DNA of 61,508 nucleotides, from NCBI GenBank assembly GCA_017428925.1, contig JAFRPY010000034.1, positions 1-61,508 of the forward strand, written 5' to 3'. This document shows, in pieces, positions 37,156 through 54,704 of the stretch; the first letter of the stretch is position 1; each line of letters starts with the position of its first letter. The stretch comes from Prevotella sp. (GTDB lineage: Bacteria > Bacteroidota > Bacteroidia > Bacteroidales > Bacteroidaceae). The notes under the pieces were generated by a model. The model was not told the DNA's origin and searched no databases. It was given only the letters and a program-made list of their open reading frames with translations. The translations under genes and the position numbers were made by a program.

Positions 37156-37260
37156 TTATTGGCTGTGAACAGCATCATCGGTCAACTGCTGAGCCTGAAG
37201 CGGCAATACACCAACGAATGCTATAAGGCACGTCAATGCCCTGATAGCTGGCTTTTTCAT
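37156..37260 (-). pseudogene. 34-codon signal-peptide remnant of the B12-locus surface protein
   Basis: This small ORF encodes MKKPAIRALTCLIAF ... QAQQLTDDAVHSQ, a complete signal peptide plus about ten residues. It matches the N-terminus of the protein encoded at 47021-48109 (MKRPAIAALTCLIAF ... QAQQMTDDADHSP) in protein and in DNA. It ends in TAA overlapping an ATG (TAATG) of the next frame. It sits between a cobalamin riboswitch and the 2197-residue gene. It is most simply the 5' stump of a lost second copy; alternatively it now works as a coupled leader peptide. Confidence 0.75.
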
Positions 37261-37320
37261 CGCATAAGCATTAAATCATCTTCCACCGTCTTCCGCGAGA
37301 CGGGAAAGAACAATAGTGAG

Positions 37321-37478
37321 AGGCAGGTCTTCTGACTTGTTGCCGATGCAAACGTCTTCCCGAAAAAGGTTCAGTGACGCGTTTGTTTGCACCATGAAGG
37401 GCAACTCACAGCTGCGGGACAGTCCAGGATTCGCACCTGATTCCCATTTTAATCGCCTGTGCAGCGAACCAATCACGT
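37321..37478 (-). promoter_or_regulatory. Cobalamin riboswitch (copy 1)
   Basis: On the minus strand the element runs from TGATTGGTTCGC (near 37477) through GGGAATCAGGTGCGAATCC, CTGTCCCGCAGCTGT and ends in the B12 box AAGTCAGAAGACCTGCC (37322-37338). The order and motifs match cobalamin riboswitches and the second copy at 54541-54690. It should repress the downstream remnant ORF and giant surface-protein gene when adenosylcobalamin is plentiful. TACCTTTG at 37488-37495 is a suitable -7 box. Confidence 0.93.
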
Positions 37479-37487
37479 TTCAGGGAG

Positions 37488-37495
37488 CAAAGGTA
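37488..37495 (-). promoter_or_regulatory. -7 promoter box upstream of cobalamin riboswitch 1
   Basis: TACCTTTG on the minus strand, about 10 bases before the riboswitch 5' end. A TTTG is 23 bases upstream, inside one of two 19-bp direct repeats (37504-37522 and 37566-37584, one mismatch). Confidence 0.55.
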
Positions 37496-37601: not shown

Positions 37602-38810
37602 TCAGATTCTCTCCAAAATCAAGCCCAAGTGATACTCCACGATTCCATTGTTATAGGTAGTATCCGTCACTTGCACCAAAGCACTTTCCCTGTCTTTATG
37701 ATAGCCGACAAATAAACGCAAGGCATCATAGCGGCGCAAATAGCGTTTCCCGTCAGACTCGTCTATATAGGTATATTTGTTGAGTGTTGTTTGCTTCAGT
37801 TCCCGATACTCTATCTTCTTTTCTCCATTCATGATTTCGTCGAAATAGACTTTCTTGATGTTGAGCGTCAGCACCTTCATACCTGTTGTGTCAAAGGTGG
37901 ATTTATTTTTGACTACTCGTTTTTCCAAGCACTCCAGCTGAGGATTGTAGGTGAAGCCAACGATTGTTCCATCCATGATCTTCTTGATGATAACATCTAC
38001 CACTGGCAAGGGAACGACAAACCACTCTTGTGGCTGATGCTCTTTGCCTTGTTCGTCAAAGACGGTGACTTGAAACTGCACAGACATGAGAAGCTGATGT
38101 ACCAAGTCCTCAAACATCTGTGAGTTCATGTTCACAACTTTATATGTAGCTACAATCTTGACAGGAGCCATCAAGTAGGTAGGATCGTTTTCTGCATTTG
38201 CGATACGTTGTTCAACGCTGTTTGTCGTAAAACCAATCTTATACAGATTCTTTTCTTGTTTGATGACAGGATTGTCTGAAAGCGAAGAGAGCACGTAAAT
38301 ATATCCCGTCACCTTATCTTCTGTCGTAATATCCGAATTATTGAAGAACTGTGCGTCCACCTCTTCCTGCAGTTCCGATATGGCATAACCATCGCCCACC
38401 ACGTTCTTGCGTAGCGTTTGCAAAAGGATGTCTGATTCTGTGCCATTTTCATAGATGCAGCGCGTTCTGGCATCAGGGAGCGAGTTGCTGCTCTTTTTCA
38501 ATTTTCCTATCTGCTCCAGCAACAGCATCTGCCCGCCTACGAAATAGTATCTTCCAGCGGTGAGTGTTGCCGTCTTGTTGATTTTCACCAGCGACCGTCT
38601 GCCTTCCTTCAGCTCCTGATGAACTTTTGCAAACAGAGGCTTATAGTCATCAAAGTTCTCACACAACTTATGCTGAGCCACATAGTCGGCCTTCTTTTTG
38701 GCAATGATTCTTCGCATATCCTGAGGAATGTCGAAAAGACTCTCTTCCTCTTTGCTCATCTTTAACAACGGGTCGTCGAAGAGGGCTTCCAGTTCCTTAT
38801 CTATATCCAT
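37602..38810 (-). CDS. GIY-YIG nuclease (T5orf172 type) fused to an ASCH domain
   Basis: This is a 402-residue protein. Residues ~165-270 contain the GIY-YIG fold of the T5orf172/MUG113 group: GYIYVL, then LYKIGFTTNSVEQRI, with a later Glu (FEDLVH). The C-terminus is an ASCH domain (NGEKKIEYREL, a GxKxxExR-type motif), thought to bind RNA or modified nucleotides. It starts 10 bases inside the preceding 77-codon ORF. In homologues I recall, both parts form one longer protein. With the helicase and methyltransferase genes upstream it probably supplies the DNA-cleaving activity of a defence system; this is inference. Confidence 0.75.
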   Translation of the reverse strand: MDIDKELEALFDDPLLKMSKEEESLFDIPQDMRRIIAKKKADYVAQHKLCENFDDYKPLFAKVHQELKEGRRSLVKINKTATLTAGRYYFVGGQMLLLEQIGKLKKSSNSLPDARTRCIYENGTESDILLQTLRKNVVGDGYAISELQEEVDAQFFNNSDITTEDKVTGYIYVLSSLSDNPVIKQEKNLYKIGFTTNSVEQRIANAENDPTYLMAPVKIVATYKVVNMNSQMFEDLVHQLLMSVQFQVTVFDEQGKEHQPQEWFVVPLPVVDVIIKKIMDGTIVGFTYNPQLECLEKRVVKNKSTFDTTGMKVLTLNIKKVYFDEIMNGEKKIEYRELKQTTLNKYTYIDESDGKRYLRRYDALRLFVGYHKDRESALVQVTDTTYNNGIVEYHLGLILERI

Positions 38811-39034
38811 ATCTCAAACCCTTTTTCACGCAGTTTTGTCATAGCCGCAAACATCAGTTTTTCTTTCAGGTCGCCGTTTTTCTGCGGTTCCCTTCCATTC
38901 TTGGCTATCCAGTTGTTCACTTCCGCCAGTTTCTGCTGCATCCTGTCGTTGGCGGTAGGTGCCGCTATCTTTGGACGCACGCCGTCCAACAGCGGGTCCT
39001 CAAATAACTCTAATAACTCTTTTGGCCATTCCAT
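38801..39034 (-). CDS. N-terminal fragment/partner of the GIY-YIG protein, 77 aa
   Basis: The 77-residue product begins PKELLELFEDPLLDG and contains WIAKNGREPQKNGDL. The GIY-YIG protein behind it begins with a related motif (DKELEALFDDPLL), and I recall full-length GIY-YIG relatives with an NGREPEPN-like segment at their N-terminus. So this is either a naturally split N-domain or the result of a frameshift. It lies 3 bases after the helicase stop and overlaps the next start by 10 bases. Confidence 0.6.
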   Translation of the reverse strand: MEWPKELLELFEDPLLDGVRPKIAAPTANDRMQQKLAEVNNWIAKNGREPQKNGDLKEKLMFAAMTKLREKGFEIWI

Positions 39035-39037
39035 ACA

Positions 39038-41050
39038 CTATCCCTCATATTCCAGTCCACTCAGTTTCCTTTGTTTCAGATTCTTAATCTTCTGAAAAGC
39101 AATAGCCAGTTCCCTCACCTTGGGGTCAGGGTCATCCACAGAAGGCACTTTGCCATTATGTTCTGCGACCCATTCTTTCAGAGGTCCCTTGAAGAGCATG
39201 ATGGCATGTTCCAACGTCATGTCATACTTCTGTTCCGCAATGGTGTCTTGGATAATCTTCAGCGTATTGGCATCAACAGATTTCGAGATCACCTCATAGG
39301 CACGCTGGAAGGGATTGACTGTATCTATCAGATTGATGCTCAATTTGTCTATATTGATAAACCTGTTGGCAATCTTAATCAGCCTGTTACCCTCGCTGGG
39401 TCTGTCGTCCTCGTTTGTGATGGTTGAAATGGGATTACCTTTCTCGTCCACGATGTCATTTCCTTTGATAATCGTATCGAGCAACACACGCTGGCGCACC
39501 TCTTCCACCTCACCTTCATTCAGTTCCGGATAGCGCTCACGTATCACCTTGGGTATCAGGTGCTGCGTAATCGTCTCTGCCGTCGTAGAGCCGCTGAGTG
39601 CTTTCACCACCATGTCGTCTTGCAGAATGGCTGCTTTCAGGTCGTCGAGCTGACTTTCCACGATGGTTTGTGTCTTTATGCTCGACAGCGGTTTCAGACC
39701 TTCCACCACAAGAGTCCTGACCGCACTCTCCCCTCCTTCGGAGGGGTCGGGGGAGGCTTTAAACTTCCAACTTGGAGCCATCACCTGTTCCATCAGCAGC
39801 GAGGCTGTAATCGCTTTCAGAAAGTCGTTTACGGCCACCTTCACCTCTGCCTGCTCAGCCTCTGGCATCGCAATCATATTTACAAAGCGGGCAGTTTCCT
39901 TACCCTCGCAGTCGCGCGTACATCTTCCTATTATCTGAATCACCTCTGTCAGCGAACCACGCACGCCAATGGTCAGGCACATCTCGCACCATTGCCAGTC
40001 GAAGCCTTCCTTTGCCGTTCCAAGAGCGATGATGATGTCCATATCGTCGCGGCTTTTCATCTTCTGCAGATAGTCCTGCACCATGTTGCGCTCTTTCTGT
40101 TCATCCTCCACGAGGTCGGCCACTTTCAGCATTCGCCCGTCATCCGTCCTGACATAATAGATGCCTGTATTGTAGTCTTTATGGTCTATGGTGCCTATCA
40201 CCTTCATGATTTCTGCCGTTTCCTGATACTTGCCCAAGCCAGTAGAGGCCCGCTGATTCACGCTGGGTATGTGGATGATGGTCTTTTTCCTTGTATCAAG
40301 CACTTCGCCTATATGGTCCAAATATGAGCCATGATAGAAGTGGTAGCCCAACACGAGATTCTTCAGATACTTATAGCCATTCAGCTGCTGGTAATAGTTA
40401 TAGGTGATGGGACAGAATCTGGCTTCATCTTCTGCCCTGAGCACAGGGATGCCGTCGCCACGGAAGTAACTGCCCGTCATGGCTACGATATGACCTGTAG
40501 AGTTATTCATCACGCGGCGTACAACATCGCCTAAGTTCGAGTTGGCATCGGCACTTGTGTGGTGGAATTCGTCTATGGCCAGAAGCGTATCATTGAAGCT
40601 GTCGTCAGGCAGTTCCTTCATACCGTTGCGCAAAGTGGCATGAGCGCAAACCAGCACTTTAGCGTTATTCTGCCGAAAGAACTCTATGAATCTTCCTTTC
40701 TTGTCCTGCTCGTTCTTCACGTCTGTCAGGTTGAAGTAAGGAGCCACCTTCCAGTCGGCAAAAAAGCCTCCACTCGTCAGATTGGTATTCTTGAACGAGC
40801 GGCCGATGCTCTTTTCCGGTACAGCCACCACCACCTTCTTCACGCCTTGATGCTCCAGCTTGTCGAGTGCGATAAACATCAGCGCACGACTCTTGCCTGA
40901 GGCTGGTGGAGCCTTGATGAGCAGGAATCTTTGGTCGCGCTTCTCGTAGGCCAGGGCCTGCATCTCTCTCATGCCTAATTCGTTGGTGGCCGTTGCCTGG
41001 CCTGTTTGCAGGTAGTGGATATCAACTATTTTGTTACTTTTTTGTTCCAT
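39038..41050 (-). CDS. SF2 DEAD/DEAH-box helicase of a defence locus
   Basis: This 670-residue helicase/translocase has Walker A APPASGKSR (about residues 46-54), Walker B LAIDEFHH (about 155-162), motif III AMTGSYFRG and motif VI QIIGRCTRD. Start at ATG 41050 (the frame extends to 41092). About 20 residues (near SWKFKASPDPSEGGESAVRT) are encoded by a GC-rich palindromic repeat at 39727-39776, in frame, in the linker after the helicase core. It belongs with the methyltransferase upstream and the GIY-YIG genes downstream; it probably translocates on DNA for restriction. An antisense toxin-antitoxin pair separates it from the methyltransferase. Confidence 0.82.
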   Translation of the reverse strand: MEQKSNKIVDIHYLQTGQATATNELGMREMQALAYEKRDQRFLLIKAPPASGKSRALMFIALDKLEHQGVKKVVVAVPEKSIGRSFKNTNLTSGGFFADWKVAPYFNLTDVKNEQDKKGRFIEFFRQNNAKVLVCAHATLRNGMKELPDDSFNDTLLAIDEFHHTSADANSNLGDVVRRVMNNSTGHIVAMTGSYFRGDGIPVLRAEDEARFCPITYNYYQQLNGYKYLKNLVLGYHFYHGSYLDHIGEVLDTRKKTIIHIPSVNQRASTGLGKYQETAEIMKVIGTIDHKDYNTGIYYVRTDDGRMLKVADLVEDEQKERNMVQDYLQKMKSRDDMDIIIALGTAKEGFDWQWCEMCLTIGVRGSLTEVIQIIGRCTRDCEGKETARFVNMIAMPEAEQAEVKVAVNDFLKAITASLLMEQVMAPSWKFKASPDPSEGGESAVRTLVVEGLKPLSSIKTQTIVESQLDDLKAAILQDDMVVKALSGSTTAETITQHLIPKVIRERYPELNEGEVEEVRQRVLLDTIIKGNDIVDEKGNPISTITNEDDRPSEGNRLIKIANRFINIDKLSINLIDTVNPFQRAYEVISKSVDANTLKIIQDTIAEQKYDMTLEHAIMLFKGPLKEWVAEHNGKVPSVDDPDPKVRELAIAFQKIKNLKQRKLSGLEYEG
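39727..39776. repeat. GC-rich palindromic repeat inside the helicase gene
   Basis: CTCCCCTCCTTCGGAGGGG plus a trailing GGAGGCTTTAAACTTCCAAC segment. The same trailing segment is found with the intergenic copy at 54786-54806, so the whole ~50 bp is repeat-derived but remains an open reading frame. Confidence 0.7.
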
Positions 41051-41055
41051 ATATA

Positions 41056-41086
41056 TTTGTTGTTTCAGATTTAATTCGTAACTTTG
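41056..41086 (+). promoter_or_regulatory. Promoter of the toxin-antitoxin pair
   Basis: TTTG (41056-41059), a 19-base spacer and TAACTTTG (41079-41086) fit the Bacteroidota consensus perfectly. It ends 25 bases before the antitoxin ATG and overlaps the 5' region of the divergent helicase gene. Confidence 0.75.
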
Positions 41087-41111
41087 CGGCATATAAATAA
41101 TTAATTGCTAT

Positions 41112-41339
41112 ATGACTTCATTTGCATTGAACAATCTGTGGACATACCTGCAGGGACTATCACTCTCGCAGAGTGATCGCGAATGGTTGGCAAACAAACT
41201 TATCCTGCCTGTCGAGAAACCTGACAATCCTGATGAGCGCCTTAAAGCCTTCCTGTCTAATATTAGCGGAGAATGGGAAGGTGAAGGTTCAGATTTGCGC
41301 CAGAGTGCTGATATGGTTCGTAATATTGAAACTTGGTAA
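41112..41339 (+). CDS. Putative antitoxin paired with a PIN toxin, 75 aa
   Basis: This 75-residue protein begins TSFALNNLWTYLQGLSLSQSDREWLANKLI and has an acidic C-terminal half. Its position, two bases ahead of a PIN-domain gene under a perfect promoter, fits an antitoxin. It does not look like a standard ribbon-helix-helix VapB; the helical, acidic character resembles small Bacteroidota antitoxins with no clear fold. The assignment is by context. Confidence 0.7.
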   Translation: MTSFALNNLWTYLQGLSLSQSDREWLANKLILPVEKPDNPDERLKAFLSNISGEWEGEGSDLRQSADMVRNIETW

Positions 41340-41341
41340 GT

Positions 41342-41746
41342 ATGCTTACACGCGGGATTTACCTTCTTGACACAGATACGTGTGTCGCGCTTCTCAAGAA
41401 AAATAGTCGTGTTCTTCAACATCTTGAAGAAGTTGGAGTTGACAATTGCAAGATTTCTGACATTACTCTTGCCGAATTGTATTTTGGTGCATTTAAGTCT
41501 GGCAAGCAAAAGCATTTCAATGACGTGAGTCAAATTGCAATGCTTTTTGAATCCTATCATGTCATGTGTCTCAAGAAATACGGAGAGATACGCTGGCAGT
41601 TGGAAAGCAGAGGCTTGAAGATTGGAGATATGGATATGTTTATTGCCGCCACAGCCATCGAGGAAGAACTTATTCTTGTTACAGGAAATCTTGCCCACTT
41701 CAGGCGCATTCCGGGACTGAAGACAGAAAACTGGATGGAAAAATAA
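41342..41746 (+). CDS. VapC-like PIN-domain toxin
   Basis: This 134-residue PIN-domain ribonuclease has the acidic residues of the family: LLDTDTCVALL, TLAELYFG, GDMDMFIAATA and VTGNLAHFRRIPGL. VapC-type toxins cleave tRNA or rRNA; the antitoxin gene lies two bases upstream. ATG 41342 is preferred over TTG 41333. The gene ends 8 bases before the stop of the convergent methyltransferase gene, so the pair is packed antisense between two genes of the defence locus. Confidence 0.85.
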   Translation: MLTRGIYLLDTDTCVALLKKNSRVLQHLEEVGVDNCKISDITLAELYFGAFKSGKQKHFNDVSQIAMLFESYHVMCLKKYGEIRWQLESRGLKIGDMDMFIAATAIEEELILVTGNLAHFRRIPGLKTENWMEK

Positions 41747-41754
41747 TCTGATAT

Positions 41755-44502
41755 TCATTTCTTTATCATCTTTTCGTATAGTTTGAACAGGCATTCCAGT
41801 CGGGCTTCGTCTGATGCGAAGGGATAGCCGGGATAGCAGCTCTCCACGATGTCGTCCAGCTTTTCGTGAGCCTCGCGCAAGTCCTGTGGCATCTTGTCGG
41901 GGTCGTAAAGGTCGGCCAACGTCTTGTCGGGGTAGTACTCGCGGGTCACTAATACTTCCTCTGCCGCCGCTTCTATCTCCGCTTTCTTCTCAGCAGAGAT
42001 TTTGGGGAAGGGGAAGGTGTTGTAGCAGAGAGTTGGTGAATATCTGTATCGCATTTCAAGTCTTCCACATGTTGTTTTCATCCATACCATATGAATGTAT
42101 GAAGAGATTATACCAAAAGTAAAAGAATTAGCATCGTATATCGCAAATGCAGCATTTGAAATGACAATATCTTTGTCAAGCAAACCTGCGGGGACATATT
42201 GACGCCTTTCTGATGAAACTCCTGGTACAATAATTGAATCTGTTTCTTTATATTGCGGTTGTCTGAAGAGATAAGGATATTTGGCGTATTCTTTAGTAGT
42301 CGCTGTATCACTCTTTAATCGAATCCGCGAAACACCCTCGAAACGTTTATTTAGTTCTGGGATATCCTTATACTGACGATATTGAGTAGCATTCATCCAT
42401 AAACAAAATCTCTTTTTCCCATTGAGAAAATCATCAGACCCCATATAACCTTTGATGACACTTGCCAAAAAAGGATACTTGGTAAGTAGCTCGTCTTTCT
42501 CATTCTGTTCCATCAATAAATAACCTCCATCGGTAGGCATGCTTCCTTTTATCATTTCAGGCAATTCGGAGATAGGCATCGATGTTCTACCTATTATTAT
42601 ATTAGGTGCATTCAGCAGATAAGGACTTATATTAGTGCATTGGATGATTGAAGTGTCTGAATATATGGTGCGTTTTGCAAATCCCTTCTTACAGACCCCT
42701 ATAATAACGACAATGACAGCAGCATTATACTTCGCATTGTTATTCCATTTAAACGATTGATAAGCAAAGTCTATTTCCAAATTCAGTTTGAAAATATTAG
42801 GCCAAAGCAACGCAACTTGTTCTCCTTGTGTAATAGAGTTTGTGCATACGAAGGCATACTTGGCTTGAGTGCTTTTAATATACTTTGCAGCGATATAGAA
42901 CCAGCATGCAATATAGTCGAGGTTCTTGTAATTCTCGAAACCTCCACAAACGATTTCCATGTCTTTCTTCTGACCTTTATCCTGCATGCTACTCCCCAAA
43001 TACGGCGGATTACCAAACACAAAGACCTCTTCCTCTGGGGTATGCGGACAAACCTCGTTCCAATCTATTCGGCAAGCATTGCCACAAACTATTTGGGTGA
43101 TGTTCTTCAGAGGCAGGGCTTTGGTGTTGACCCCAAACTGCGAGTTGAGCTTGGTGTTCATCTGGTGCTCGGCGAGCCAGAGGCTGAGCATGGCCACTTC
43201 GTGCGGGAAGTCGAGCAGCTCGATGCCGTAGAACTGGCTGAGACTGATGACGCTATTATCCACGAATAGGATTTCGCCCTCGGGCGTACACTTGCGCTCC
43301 AGGGTGAGGATGTCCATTTCGAGGAAACGCAACGACTTGTAGGTGATAATCAGGAAGTTGCCGCTACCACAGGCAGGATCGAAAAACTTCATGCGGCTCA
43401 TGCGCCGAAGCAGAGCCTCGCACTTGCGCTTCACGGCCTTGCACTCATCATAGAACTGCCTGTAGCTCAACGCCCCGATGTCGCGCAGCTGGCGCTTCTG
43501 TTCGTAAAATTCGTTTAATTCGTTGTAGCTTTTTCGCAGTTCGTCCATGAAGAGCGGATTGATGACCTTCATAATGTTGGGTACGCTGGTATAGTGCATG
43601 CCCTGATTGGCGCGTACCTCCGGATTCACCACCGCCTGGATCATGCTTCCGAAGATGTCGGGATTGATGTCCTTCCAGTCCAGTTCGCCGCACTCGATGA
43701 TGATCCGTCGGGCCTTGGCTCCCATCCGTGGTATCTGGATATGCTTGGAAAACAGACCGCCATTGACATATGGGAACTGCTTGACAATGCTGGGAATATC
43801 GCTATGGCGGAGCGAGAGGTCCATCACGTTGAACGACTCATCGAGATACTGAGAGAGGTCGGAGCCGTCTTCCTTGGTGAAACGCTGGATGCTGCTGGTA
43901 AACAGATTGTCCTCAAAGATGCCCGTGTCCTCGGCAAAGAAGCAGAACAGCAGGCGGCTGATAAAGATGTTCAGGTCGTGCAGGTCGTCGTCTGAACGGA
44001 ACTCATTGTAGCTACGCAGTTCGTCGTGCAACTTCGCCAGTTTCTCTGCGGCTTTGATGTCGGCCGGACTCTCCTCTACATAATGCACCCGCTCCACATC
44101 CATCAGCGGATAGAAGAAAGCAAAATCTGAGGGAAGCCGTTCCAGTTGATTTTCATAGGTGTCTTTCTCGCGCAGGTCGTAGGCCAGTACTGTTTTGCCA
44201 TCGCTCACGGCTATAATCTTTGGGGCAGCCTTGACAATTTGCGGATTGATCTTTAGGAGTTCCAGTTGTTCCGTCAATCCAAACATGCTGACGGGTTGAT
44301 AACAAAAAAGTCCCTTGATGAGCAGACCATCAAAGGTTTTCAAAACGCCTTTACCTTCTTTGTATCTCTCTATATCGCGCTCACTCTTACCAAAGCACCA
44401 GAGTAGTTTATATCCTACTTCGTCTGCTTGGATACCTTTGCCAAAACTATCGCCTAAGCGTTGTTCTATCTCGCGATAACCTAATTGCAGTTTCTTTGCC
44501 AA
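41755..44502 (-). CDS. MmeI-like class I SAM-dependent DNA adenine methyltransferase
   Basis: This 915-residue protein has MmeI-family length. SAM motif I FDPACGSGNFL (about residue 370), the helical segment DFPHEVAMLSLWLAEHQMN, and catalytic FGNPPYLGSS (about residue 495) identify an N6-adenine methyltransferase, followed by a target-recognition region and the conserved end PDKTLADLYDPDKMP. The N-terminal region where MmeI enzymes carry a D...ExK nuclease shows no such motif (GVLKTFDGLLIKG instead). Translation must start at TTG 44502 because TGA is in frame five codons upstream. With the helicase and GIY-YIG genes it suggests an RM-like system with a separate nuclease. Confidence 0.8.
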   Translation of the reverse strand: MAKKLQLGYREIEQRLGDSFGKGIQADEVGYKLLWCFGKSERDIERYKEGKGVLKTFDGLLIKGLFCYQPVSMFGLTEQLELLKINPQIVKAAPKIIAVSDGKTVLAYDLREKDTYENQLERLPSDFAFFYPLMDVERVHYVEESPADIKAAEKLAKLHDELRSYNEFRSDDDLHDLNIFISRLLFCFFAEDTGIFEDNLFTSSIQRFTKEDGSDLSQYLDESFNVMDLSLRHSDIPSIVKQFPYVNGGLFSKHIQIPRMGAKARRIIIECGELDWKDINPDIFGSMIQAVVNPEVRANQGMHYTSVPNIMKVINPLFMDELRKSYNELNEFYEQKRQLRDIGALSYRQFYDECKAVKRKCEALLRRMSRMKFFDPACGSGNFLIITYKSLRFLEMDILTLERKCTPEGEILFVDNSVISLSQFYGIELLDFPHEVAMLSLWLAEHQMNTKLNSQFGVNTKALPLKNITQIVCGNACRIDWNEVCPHTPEEEVFVFGNPPYLGSSMQDKGQKKDMEIVCGGFENYKNLDYIACWFYIAAKYIKSTQAKYAFVCTNSITQGEQVALLWPNIFKLNLEIDFAYQSFKWNNNAKYNAAVIVVIIGVCKKGFAKRTIYSDTSIIQCTNISPYLLNAPNIIIGRTSMPISELPEMIKGSMPTDGGYLLMEQNEKDELLTKYPFLASVIKGYMGSDDFLNGKKRFCLWMNATQYRQYKDIPELNKRFEGVSRIRLKSDTATTKEYAKYPYLFRQPQYKETDSIIVPGVSSERRQYVPAGLLDKDIVISNAAFAIYDANSFTFGIISSYIHMVWMKTTCGRLEMRYRYSPTLCYNTFPFPKISAEKKAEIEAAAEEVLVTREYYPDKTLADLYDPDKMPQDLREAHEKLDDIVESCYPGYPFASDEARLECLFKLYEKMIKK

Positions 44503-45614: not shown

Positions 45615-46934
45615 CAGGGCAGACGCTCAATAGTTATTACAAATTGTATTTTGTAAAATATTATAGATGTATTTATAGATATTTCTAATTATGTATATAT
45701 CTGATATACATTATATTATGTTAACTATTACTATTTGTGTGTATCAAATATTTTTATTATCTTTGTACTTTATAATCATCATTATTAAAGTACAATGGAT
45801 ATACTGACTTTTAGCAAGCGCGTTCCCGACTGCAGGAACGAGAAGAACAGGCTCTATGACGCCTCTGAACTGGTGTTTATTTCTGTGGTTGCCGTACTCT
45901 GCGGTTCAGAGACGTGGAATGAGATAGAGGAGTTCTGCGAATACAACTTCAAGTATTTCAAGGACCGGCTTCCTAGTCTCCGCGGAGTACCTTCGCATGA
46001 CACGCTTAACCGTTTCTTCTCCGTGCTTGACCCGTCATGGTTTGAAAAGGTGTTCCGTGATTGGGTAAAAGACATCTGTGACCGGATATCAGGCGTGGTT
46101 GCCATCGACGGCAAGGCTGTCTGCAGGAATCCCTCAGACACGTCCAACAGTGTGAGGAACCGTCTGTACATGGTGAGTGCATGGTCTGAGGCCAATGGCA
46201 TCTGTCTTGGGCAGGAGAAGGTCGGCGTCAAATCAAATGAGATAACGGCCATTCCCAAGCTCATCGAAGCATTGGACCTGAGGGGATGCATCGTAACGAT
46301 AGATGCCATCGGCTGCCAGAAATCCATAGCCGAAGACATTGTGAAAGCAGGTGCAGATTACGTGCTGTGTGCAAAGAAGAACCAGAAGCATCTTAGGGAC
46401 TTGGTTGCATTCAATGTAGACGAGAGCAAGAAGGAGATTGAGGGCTATTGCAAATGGTGTGAGCATAGTAATGACGGGCATGGCAGGCACGAATGGCGCG
46501 AGTGCGTATGCACGGATTTTGAGAAGCTGGCAAAATTCTTTCTCAAAGGATGGACAGGGGTACGCACATTAGCTAGGGTAACAACAAAAAGGCAGATTGG
46601 CGACGGTCCCGTTTCCGAAGAAACCAGGTATTACATCACATCTCTGCCTGATGATCCAGAGCAGATTCTTAAATCTGTAAGGGCACACTGGTCCATTGAG
46701 AACCAGCTGCACTGGAGGATGGACGTGGCCTTCAGGGAAGACTATACAAGAAAGACAGACAATGCCGCCATAAATTTCTCCGCATTAGGAAAAATGGCGC
46801 TGATGATGCTCAAAGCATGGGACAAGAAGGTTGGCATTGCTAGCAAGAGGAAATTTTGCAGTTGGGACGAGAATACAAGAGACAAGGTATTGGGAATCAA
46901 AAAAACATGTTAATATTATTGAGCGTCTGCCCTG
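45615..46934 (+). mobile_element. Intact ISAs1-family insertion sequence, 1320 bp
   Basis: The 18-bp ends CAGGGCAGACGCTCAATA (45615-45632) and its exact reverse complement (46917-46934) enclose one transposase gene. A 10-bp duplication (ACATGTACAT) flanks both sides, so insertion looks recent. It landed 30 bp from the nested palindrome, between it and the terminator of the B12-region operon. Confidence 0.93.
45795..46913 (+). CDS. ISAs1-family transposase
   Basis: This 372-residue DDE transposase of the ISAs1 (H-repeat) family has an N-terminal DDE_Tnp_1-associated region (LYDASELVFISVVAVLCGSE), VVAIDGKAVC, IVTIDAIGCQKSIAE and the C-terminal SIENQLHWRMDVAFREDYTR block with the catalytic Glu. 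It is full length and fits the IS ends, so it is probably active. The Asp residues of VVAIDGK and TIDAIG are seen. Confidence 0.93.
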   Translation: MDILTFSKRVPDCRNEKNRLYDASELVFISVVAVLCGSETWNEIEEFCEYNFKYFKDRLPSLRGVPSHDTLNRFFSVLDPSWFEKVFRDWVKDICDRISGVVAIDGKAVCRNPSDTSNSVRNRLYMVSAWSEANGICLGQEKVGVKSNEITAIPKLIEALDLRGCIVTIDAIGCQKSIAEDIVKAGADYVLCAKKNQKHLRDLVAFNVDESKKEIEGYCKWCEHSNDGHGRHEWRECVCTDFEKLAKFFLKGWTGVRTLARVTTKRQIGDGPVSEETRYYITSLPDDPEQILKSVRAHWSIENQLHWRMDVAFREDYTRKTDNAAINFSALGKMALMMLKAWDKKVGIASKRKFCSWDENTRDKVLGIKKTC

Positions 46935-47020: not shown

Positions 47021-48109
47021 TCACTTATTCACAAATTGCTTTCCGTTCTTGATGCAAATGCCACGATAGGCGCGCGAGACGCGCTGGCCCTGTAAGTTGT
47101 AGAGAGCGCTCTGCTGTGCTGACTGCACCGGACTCACGATTGCCGTGGCCGTGCGGATGGCATCGAGCGAAGCTTCCAGATGCAGGTCGTGGGCTCCTGC
47201 CACTTCGGTGGATGTCTCGCCCAACTGGGGAACGGTCTGGTTCATGCCGTTATAAATACGAATAAAGTCGATGAAATCGAGGTTTTTGGGCTGTCGGTTC
47301 TCATCCACGGCCCAACTGATGTCGATTGAGCATCCTTCTTCGTCGCTATTGGGAAGATTGTCGGCATAGCCATAGCGCAGGAACAACAGCACCCACTGTT
47401 TCTTGTATTTCCCCTGTTCGAAGTACCAGGCATTCTGCGGCAGACGGGTACCGCTGAAGGTCAGGTTGTCGTCGAGCCAGCCTGGATAATACTCCTGGGT
47501 GTGCTGAAACGCATCCATGCGCTTGATAACACCCGATTCGCCACGGTTGTCGGTCCAGGGAATCTCCTTCATGGGATTCCTGCGGTAGGTGATGCTGTAG
47601 GCATAATCCACCTTCCCCACACTGTCCACATCGGCCGAGCCGCTGATCTCGTACCAGGGGTCGTCGGGCACGCCGTTATGGTTCTCATCTTTCGAGACCA
47701 TGATGATGCCCGGCTCGCTACTGCCGCCGAGGATATCCGGGAACATCGCGCTCTGTATGGCGTTGCCAAGAATGTAGAAGTCGCGCTGCCCGCTGATGTT
47801 GGCAATGCTGTGGTCGAAATGGAAAGTGACGTAGCCGCCATAGCCGCCCAGCGTGATCATGCTATGATCTTGGTCGGCATAGTCGCCTGCAATGGCCTCC
47901 GTACACTTGGCAGCCATCCTGGCTGCATCGTCGCCCGGCTCCCACACCGGCAGGTCGTTAACAAACTGTCCAGGAGCGGGCACATACTCGTCAACTGCCA
48001 ACAGATAGGGGCTGTGGTCAGCGTCGTCGGTCATCTGCTGCGCCTGAATCGGCAAGACAGCCGCGAATGCTATAAGGCACGTCAATGCCGCAATAGCTGG
48101 TCTTTTCAT
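47021..48109 (-). CDS. Secreted surface protein of the B12 region, 362 aa
   Basis: The product is 362 residues with a signal peptide (AALTCLIAFAAVLPIQAQ) and a compact beta-rich body (SPYLLAVDEYVPAPGQFVNDLPVWEPGD, TLGGYGGYVTFHFDHSIANISG, KDENHNGVPDDPWYEISGS) resembling cell-surface proteins that accompany btuB/btuG genes. The tail ALYNLQGQRVSRAYRGICIKNGKQFVNK is of the sorting type. The copy of its 5' end behind a cobalamin riboswitch at 37156-37260 ties the family to B12. It is last in a three-gene unit (27 bases behind the hydrolase) and is followed by a terminator. Confidence 0.72.
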   Translation of the reverse strand: MKRPAIAALTCLIAFAAVLPIQAQQMTDDADHSPYLLAVDEYVPAPGQFVNDLPVWEPGDDAARMAAKCTEAIAGDYADQDHSMITLGGYGGYVTFHFDHSIANISGQRDFYILGNAIQSAMFPDILGGSSEPGIIMVSKDENHNGVPDDPWYEISGSADVDSVGKVDYAYSITYRRNPMKEIPWTDNRGESGVIKRMDAFQHTQEYYPGWLDDNLTFSGTRLPQNAWYFEQGKYKKQWVLLFLRYGYADNLPNSDEEGCSIDISWAVDENRQPKNLDFIDFIRIYNGMNQTVPQLGETSTEVAGAHDLHLEASLDAIRTATAIVSPVQSAQQSALYNLQGQRVSRAYRGICIKNGKQFVNK

Positions 48110-54487: not shown

Positions 54488-54540
54488 ACTTAGTGTCAGC
54501 AAGCGCCTATCCTCGAAGCGCATGGTGAATAAAAGCCGAC

Positions 54541-54690
54541 GGCAGGTCTTCTGACTTACTCCCCTCTGAAGGCGCCTTCCCGTCGGACGGACAGTGGCAT
54601 CCTTGCCTTCACACAATGGGGACTTACAGCTGCGGGACAGTCTGGGATTCTCACCCAATTCCCTTTTCATCGCAGTATGCGAACCAATCA
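54541..54690 (-). promoter_or_regulatory. Cobalamin riboswitch (copy 2), upstream of btuB
   Basis: On the minus strand: TGATTGGTTCGC (near 54690), AAAAGGGAATTGGGTGAGAATCC, CTGTCCCGCAGCTGT, GGATGCCACTG and the B12 box AAGTCAGAAGACCTGCC (54541-54557). All core elements match cobalamin riboswitches and copy 1 at 37321-37478. It should switch btuB-btuG off when cobalamin is abundant. Confidence 0.95.
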
Positions 54691-54696
54691 GCGCTG

Positions 54697-54704
54697 CAAA
54701 GATA
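54697..54704 (-). promoter_or_regulatory. -7 promoter box upstream of cobalamin riboswitch 2
   Basis: TATCTTTG on the minus strand directly ahead of the riboswitch. It implies a transcript start within a few bases of the aptamer. Confidence 0.6.

Follow-up and report, generated by a model that had tools for sequence, protein, structure and literature searches.

Background

DnmA (YeeA) of Bacillus subtilis is described as one of the MmeI homologues that carry no endonuclease motif and are flanked by yeeB- and yeeC-like genes (PMC7261158, citing Morgan et al. 2009), and adenine methylation by DnmA in B. subtilis is in print. A role like that of a Type I restriction-modification (R-M) system was suggested earlier for the dnmA cluster (PMC7261158 and PMC9973331, both citing Morgan et al. 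2009), and in different species the two genes that follow dnmA are reported to encode first a YeeB and then a YeeC homologue (PMC9973331). In Vibrio crassostreae, deletion of dnmA or yeeB led to greater sensitivity to some phage subclades and not to others (study cited in PMC9973331). The V. crassostreae deletion study, reference 35 of PMC9973331, is reportedly that of Piel et al. 2022.

Here we analyze a locus of this kind in a 61,508-nucleotide stretch of DNA from Prevotella sp. (GenBank assembly GCA_017428925.1, contig JAFRPY010000034.1, positions 1 to 61,508), hereafter the window. Four of its minus-strand genes form the operon under study, and we refer to their products as MT (methyltransferase), HEL (helicase), N77 and GIY (GIY-YIG protein). 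An initial annotation, made by a model from the letters alone, had grouped these genes, which the open reading frames (ORFs) bear out, and had suggested that they might be a new, unnamed defence system. That second idea we reject, because the same three-gene cluster is already in print as dnmA(yeeA)-yeeB-yeeC.

Results

The operon has the DnmA-YeeB-YeeC composition

The window operon is of DnmA(YeeA)-YeeB-YeeC composition, and therefore not new; the likeness is one of composition, not of direct alignment to the B. subtilis proteins. Its MT is of the MmeI type without the nuclease motif, the next operon gene downstream encodes an SF2 helicase (a VapBC toxin-antitoxin pair intervenes on the other strand), and a T5orf172/GIY-YIG gene, preceded by N77, comes after the helicase. 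As a control, the B. subtilis genome matches PF20473 and PF10544, a comparison at the level of Pfam families only.

All five MmeI domains of Pfam are found in MT (MmeI_N, MmeI_hel, MmeI_Mtase at 7e-102, MmeI_TRD and MmeI_C), and two segments of it, within residues 93-913, align to the solved MmeI (5hr4). Its TTG start is backed by relatives with Met at the same position. The initial annotation had seen no nuclease in this protein; alignment confirms that D...ExK is absent, and rules out a residual nuclease in the N-terminus. In the proposed check against PADLOC, the best model for MT is REase_MTase_IIG (PDLC03598, 1005 bits), the name of which implies a nuclease that is absent here; the best matches of HEL (E 1e-8) and GIY (7.6e-6) are both weak. 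Given the PDLC03598 score, automatic annotation may label MT a self-contained Type IIG enzyme.

In 75 MTs we searched the part that precedes the catalytic domain for the nuclease motif, D-x(8-10)-(hydrophobic)-ExK. (Duplicate genome-search copies L084-L090, L091 and L092 were left out of this count and of the catalytic-motif counts below, and L084-L090 were left out of the alignments.) The motif was found in none of the 52 MTs with an adjacent HEL, 51 of which also have GIY while one contig ends before GIY, versus 22 of the 23 MTs without HEL or GIY in the retrieved DNA. The lone exception, L133, is an N-terminally short ORF of 777 residues that lacks helicase, GIY and motif alike. HEL was the main route to the 52 helicase-bearing MTs, and for six of the 22 motif-bearing ones (L128, L129, L141, L146, L147 and L148) the retrieved DNA extends less than 1 kb downstream; the absence of HEL and GIY is supported for the remaining 16 only, each with at least 2.6 kb downstream. 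A comparison independent of HEL sampling sets these 16, motif-bearing and without helicase, against the window, L094, L124, L125 and L126, which an MT-family search reached as well and which have helicase and GIY but not the motif. The genome of the window itself encodes an intact MmeI-type enzyme with D...ExK (L080/L144, G000:C18), which serves as an internal control; MT is 35% identical to this intact paralogue. Finally, a profile alignment of 52 DnmA-like against 21 intact N-termini spans the whole region and places LFCYQPVS at about the LIExKS strand. Given this alignment and the absence of the motif from helicase-bearing MTs, the motif is lost in the lineage and not in this copy alone.

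The genes stay together across Bacteroidales and on plasmids

A HEL search of genome contigs yielded 57 Bacteroidales-type loci, with titles naming Prevotella or Prevotellaceae, Bacteroidaceae, Parabacteroides, Paludibacter, Candidatus Minthosoma, and Bacteroidales or Bacteroidia. Cultured carriers among them include Prevotella sp. P2-180 (L052) and Bacteroides graminisolvens DSM 19988 (L058). MT (whole, or partial where a contig stops), HEL, N77 and GIY occur together in 48 of the 57. In the seven loci without an MT match, no more than 2.1 kb of contig is left upstream of HEL; one locus has no GIY, and its contig ends 251 bp downstream. L060 (9998-12427) is degenerate: truncated HEL and GIY form one 823-residue frame, without N77 and beside an MT remnant. 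It shares assembly CAMVIM01 with another copy, L046. Where MT was matched (50 loci), the match reaches both protein ends in 42, the gapped match of L060 included, and is cut at the contig start in 7. The conservation of the neighbourhood that the initial annotation had put up for testing is present in these Bacteroidales-type loci, as is its set of MT, helicase and separate GIY-YIG protein, which recurs in many genomes. The division of methylation, translocation and cleavage among proteins that it proposed is supported as the simplest reading of this co-occurrence.

Across a set of 100 genomes, that of the window among them, 14 have a HEL match (one is marginal, E 3.7e-4); the distribution is patchy, like that of mobile defence genes. 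Of 72,556 plasmid records, 263 contain a HEL match, which in 152 spans 80% or more of the query. Seven plasmid loci were inspected: in five (L072, L074, L076, L077 and L078) MT, HEL and GIY are complete and adjacent, and in L073 and L075 MT is split or truncated. The genes are thus found outside this phylum too, arranged as MT-HEL-GIY on plasmids from Arthrobacter, Rhodococcus, Klebsiella and Pantoea. As for carriage by phages, the helicase matched 3 of 50,697 phage records and covered 80% of the query in none.

Recognition domains diverge more than helicase and GIY-YIG protein

The target recognition domain (TRD) of MT has a mean identity of 42.1% among 35 MTs. The remaining segments of MT average 78.6, 85.1, 83.6, 72.3 and 88.1%. 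Mean identity is 80.9% for HEL (35 proteins), 76.1% for GIY (27 proteins) and 62.3% for N77. Residues 321-360 and 521-600 of MT are also variable (58-60%), though less so than residues 601-800 (29-44%). For example, L034 and L035 are 98% identical in HEL and 94% in GIY, yet their TRDs are only 41% identical. Divergence of the TRD beside a near-constant HEL and GIY is what would be expected if MT holds the specificity and the other two proteins are generic.

All 48 MTs examined have motif I and 47 of them motif IV; HEL motifs I, II and VI are kept in all 66 examined. G169, Y172, G193, R202 and E234 of the GIY-YIG domain are invariant in 54 of 54 aligned proteins, and we take these residues to be the catalytic ones. 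(A pattern search for the Arg missed 4 of 64 GIY proteins; three of those four are within the 54 aligned rows, where the Arg is invariant.) The ratio of nonsynonymous to synonymous substitution (dN/dS) is 0.02-0.14 for HEL in 14 pairs and 0.03-0.29 for GIY in 10 computable pairs, though dS is high in several pairs. With motifs kept, purifying selection and diversified TRDs, the Bacteroidales loci look active.

N77 and the ASCH-like tail

HEL matches ResIII and DEAD in Pfam and weakly resembles PbeA, DrmD and a restriction protein of a phosphorothioation system; GIY matches T5orf172 (2.6e-14). A convincing Pfam match for N77 was not found (best E 0.032). By hhalign, N77 corresponds to a domain fused at the N-terminal end of five GIY proteins (98.2%, E 3e-14; from Arthrobacter, Rhodococcus, Klebsiella and Pantoea). 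In Acinetobacter and Proteus its match is a 95-residue protein encoded separately at this place (98.2%, 5e-14); with the N-terminus of the Bacteroidales GIY itself it gives only a 19-column alignment (85%). Since homologues of N77 are fused to GIY in other phyla, N77 presumably works together with GIY as its partner.

The ASCH domain, which the initial annotation included in the system and suggested as a possible sensor of a modified base or RNA, is not a core part. In the window's GIY it falls under the Pfam cut-off (15.0 versus 21.2 bits), but among 43 aligned relatives 24 reach E<=0.1 for ASCH (best 5.6e-5). Of 54 scorable Bacteroidales-type loci, 42 carry the ASCH-like tail and 12 lack it. 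All 12 tail-less loci have a closed GIY frame, one of them being the fused frame of L060; the tail could not be scored in L047 (contig end) or in L053 (GIY match stops at residue 172). None of the seven aligned plasmid relatives has it. The tail is an accessory, and because it is optional we have demoted the idea that ASCH is the modified-base sensor of the system.

Layout of the locus and the pair between MT and HEL

Coordinates are collected in Table 1.

Table 1. Features of the window operon and of the genes embedded in it
Feature	Position	Strand	Description
MT	41755-44502	-	915 aa, TTG start; MmeI-family adenine methyltransferase, DnmA/YeeA type, without N-terminal D...ExK motif
TRD of MT (residues 632-835)	41998-42609	-	Hypervariable among relatives
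Putative VapB-like antitoxin	41112-41339	+	75 aa; antisense to operon; without Pfam match
VapC/PIN-domain toxin	41333-41746	+	137 aa; cargo between MT and HEL
HEL	39038-41092	-	684 aa; SF2 (ResIII/DEAD) helicase, YeeB type
N77	38801-39034	-	77 aa; stand-alone counterpart of an N-terminal domain of GIY-YIG proteins from some other phyla
GIY	37602-38810	-	402 aa; T5orf172/GIY-YIG protein, YeeC type, domain at residues 169-278
ASCH-like C-terminal extension of GIY	37605-37880	-	About residues 311-402; optional

Two plus-strand ORFs between MT and HEL were overlooked in the initial annotation. The PIN ORF matches PIN (1.4e-9) and the VapC model of NCBIfam (9e-31, under that model's cut-off), with a small gene just upstream. 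In L029, homologues of the small antitoxin-like ORF (60% identity) and of VapC (34%) adjoin each other, downstream of GIY. Because both homologues are adjacent there, the two ORFs are read as a VapBC pair; the small one is a putative antitoxin by its position and its conservation in L029 only.

Outside the operon, an ISAs1-family transposase gene lies upstream of MT (45795-46913, plus strand). Two cobalamin riboswitches (Rfam RF00174) are found on the minus strand, at 37305-37488 and 54524-54704. Beside the first, at about 37160-37270, lies a stretch that to the eye resembles the beginning of the gene at 47021-48109, in a short and truncated copy, which suggests that the R-M island may sit between duplicated riboswitch-linked pieces.

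A recurrent insertion slot between MT and HEL

The spacing between MT and HEL, measured in 50 loci, is within 30 bp in 16, 104 bp in one and above 150 bp in 33. With ends corrected for the query and L060 excluded, 32 of 49 MT-HEL junctions exceed 150 bp, versus 1 of 56 HEL-N77 and 0 of 55 N77-GIY junctions (Fisher 4e-20, although the loci are related to each other). On a HEL tree of 50 loci that includes the window and omits L060 and L071, cargo type requires at least 20 changes and presence or absence of cargo 11. In other words, the MT-HEL junction is a recurrent insertion slot, often for toxin-antitoxin-type genes.

Cargo families were assigned by clusters, identities and Pfam, the last covering 54 of 198 junction ORFs (>=45 aa) and the two window ORFs. 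Among the 32 slots, a polyvalent-protein kinase occupies ten, DUF6169 six and a YoeB toxin six. Single slots hold PIN, a ParE-like gene (under the cut-off), a nucleotidyltransferase-HepT pair, HEPN, Schlafen AlbA_2 and an AAA_11 helicase; four are unclassified. Recognizable toxins of toxin-antitoxin systems are thus present in 9 of the 32, and the window is a further case. The two largest classes, the kinase and DUF6169, are not known to us as toxin-antitoxin families. PADLOC gave scattered single matches on the 56 cargo ORFs. Outside the 32, the slot of L124 holds KilA-N, Abi_C and RhuM genes. The kinases and all but one of the six DUF6169 genes share the direction of the operon, whereas YoeB, PIN and the window's VapBC lie antisense to it. 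We did not find this cargo slot in print in the open-access literature searched.

The same genome holds an arrangement of similar outline. L156 (G000:C111, 1437-7135) encodes an MTase of the Eco57I type, split over two frames that overlap, followed by a Zeta toxin and a T5orf172 (GIY-YIG)-ResIII helicase fusion of 836 residues, so that a toxin lies between modification and restriction genes as in the window. We considered this fusion as a close relative and rejected it: by BLASTP its helicase part does not resemble HEL (E 0.53) and its GIY part does so weakly (E 0.002). L156 is therefore an analogue and not a member. Another locus, L155 (G000:C62, 3909-8194), has minus-strand genes for Methylase_S and for a Type I-like N6-MTase that contains an HSDR_N_2 domain; just upstream is a 165-residue stand-alone T5orf172 protein.

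The slot may reflect functional coupling or may simply be a site at which insertions are tolerated. Coupling of immunity to suicide, and toxin genes in R-M loci, have been proposed before (PMC3506569 and PMC3710099). In Bacteroidales the slot might be dedicated to exchangeable toxin-antitoxin or abortive-infection modules coupled to R-M, with complete toxin-antitoxin pairs as a back-up, firing when R-M is inhibited or lost, as a modular counterpart of PrrC-EcoprrI; we regard this as conceivable but doubtful. The slot provides a natural series for asking whether immunity and suicide modules are coupled, and is the part of this locus most worth pursuing.

Discussion

A probable split R-M system and its rivals

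We think it probable that the operon encodes a split, Type I-like R-M system in which MT is the methyltransferase and specificity subunit, HEL the motor, GIY the nuclease and N77 its partner. The TRD of MT would find an asymmetric site, and MT would methylate the adenine of host DNA. At an unmodified site MT may instead recruit the YeeB-type helicase, which would travel along the DNA, and the GIY-YIG protein would then cut, with N77 as a small partner domain. The N-terminal region freed by loss of the nuclease may dock the restriction subunits, and MT, HEL, N77 and GIY would contact one another. HEL and GIY could serve any MT specificity, leaving the TRD free to diversify while both stay constant. 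The ASCH-like tail is an optional accessory, and VapBC, in the slot between modification and restriction genes, is at least cargo, may stabilize the locus and could possibly form a second line of defence.

Several observations weigh against this model. The B. subtilis cluster is described as not restricting transformation (PMC7261158) and as having no effect on three phages (PMC9973331). Among the Bacteroidales-type loci, L057 and L053 are damaged copies, with the MT match ending at residue 726 in the former and the GIY match at residue 172 in the latter. Tblastn did not find N77 in the more distant loci L094, L124 and L125, so the separate gene is not universal, and the MT-HEL distance of 0.2-3.3 kb in 33 of 50 loci speaks against one tightly coupled transcript there. 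The B. subtilis deletions, which led their authors to the term relic (PMC7261158, PMC9973331), and the few damaged copies (L053, L057 and L060) favour a reading in which MT is an orphan kept for epigenetic regulation while HEL and GIY no longer restrict, as was concluded for B. subtilis. For our loci we consider this unlikely: in a relic, erosion of HEL and GIY would be expected, yet in Bacteroidales purifying selection acts on both and their motifs are retained, and TRD divergence resembles that of active R-M systems.

HEL and GIY could instead act on foreign modified phage DNA, Type IV-like, with the ASCH-like domain as reader, or impose a BREX-like block on replication, with MT protecting self. 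This would suit the tail found in 42 of 54 scorable loci, the weak likeness of HEL to PbeA, DrmD and the phosphorothioation-system protein, and the published statement that phage genomes are not depleted of the motif (PMC9973331). But ASCH cannot be a general sensor, because 12 loci and all seven aligned plasmid relatives lack the tail, and the invariant GIY-YIG residues argue for cleavage; either variant seems to us decidedly unlikely. It is most improbable that the operon and VapBC are mainly a selfish addiction cassette on mobile DNA that kills after loss of MT or antitoxin. Plasmid carriage (263 of 72,556 records), toxin-antitoxin-type cargo within the operon and the ISAs1 transposase gene upstream would fit such a cassette, but in 17 of 50 loci MT and HEL are at most 104 bp apart, which leaves no room for cargo, loss of MT is not lethal in B. 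subtilis (PMC7261158), and addiction alone hardly explains the diversification of the TRD.

If the split Type I-like model holds, one helicase-GIY pair serves many specificities through the recognition domain of MT. The papers cited here (PMC7261158, PMC9973331) have not settled whether DnmA-YeeB-YeeC still functions in R-M or persists as a relic, and the Bacteroidales loci, which look active, may suit its study better than B. subtilis.

Comparison with known systems

DISARM class 1 and BREX share with the window a large adenine MT and a helicase, and in PADLOC MT has weak DrmMI and PglX matches and HEL a very weak DrmD match. We rejected both assignments: among the seven locus proteins scanned, DrmA, DrmB and DrmC were unmatched in the one case, and PglZ and BrxC in the other, with only weak PglX hits to MT. 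With Type I R-M the locus would share cooperating parts for modification and specificity, translocation and cleavage; unlike Type I, its specificity lies inside MT and not in an HsdS, and its GIY-YIG nuclease domain is apart from the motor, domains of HsdS or of a nuclease-plus-motor HsdR being absent from the locus proteins. EcoprrI with PrrC, a guarded toxin (PMC3710099), likewise has toxin-type genes embedded among R-M genes, whereas the embedded genes here include toxin-antitoxin pairs. With MmeI and the other Type IIL (IIG) enzymes the window has in common the MTase, TRD and C-terminal domains (all five Pfam domains), but those enzymes carry D...ExK in the same polypeptide, while here it is missing and helicase and GIY-YIG are separate proteins. 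The closest match remains DnmA-YeeB-YeeC of B. subtilis, with homologues in V. crassostreae and, in print, in defence islands: the same motif-less MmeI-type MT, with an SF2 helicase one position and a T5orf172/GIY-YIG protein two positions downstream, to which the window adds a 77-residue gene before GIY, an ASCH-like GIY tail and VapBC between MT and HEL.

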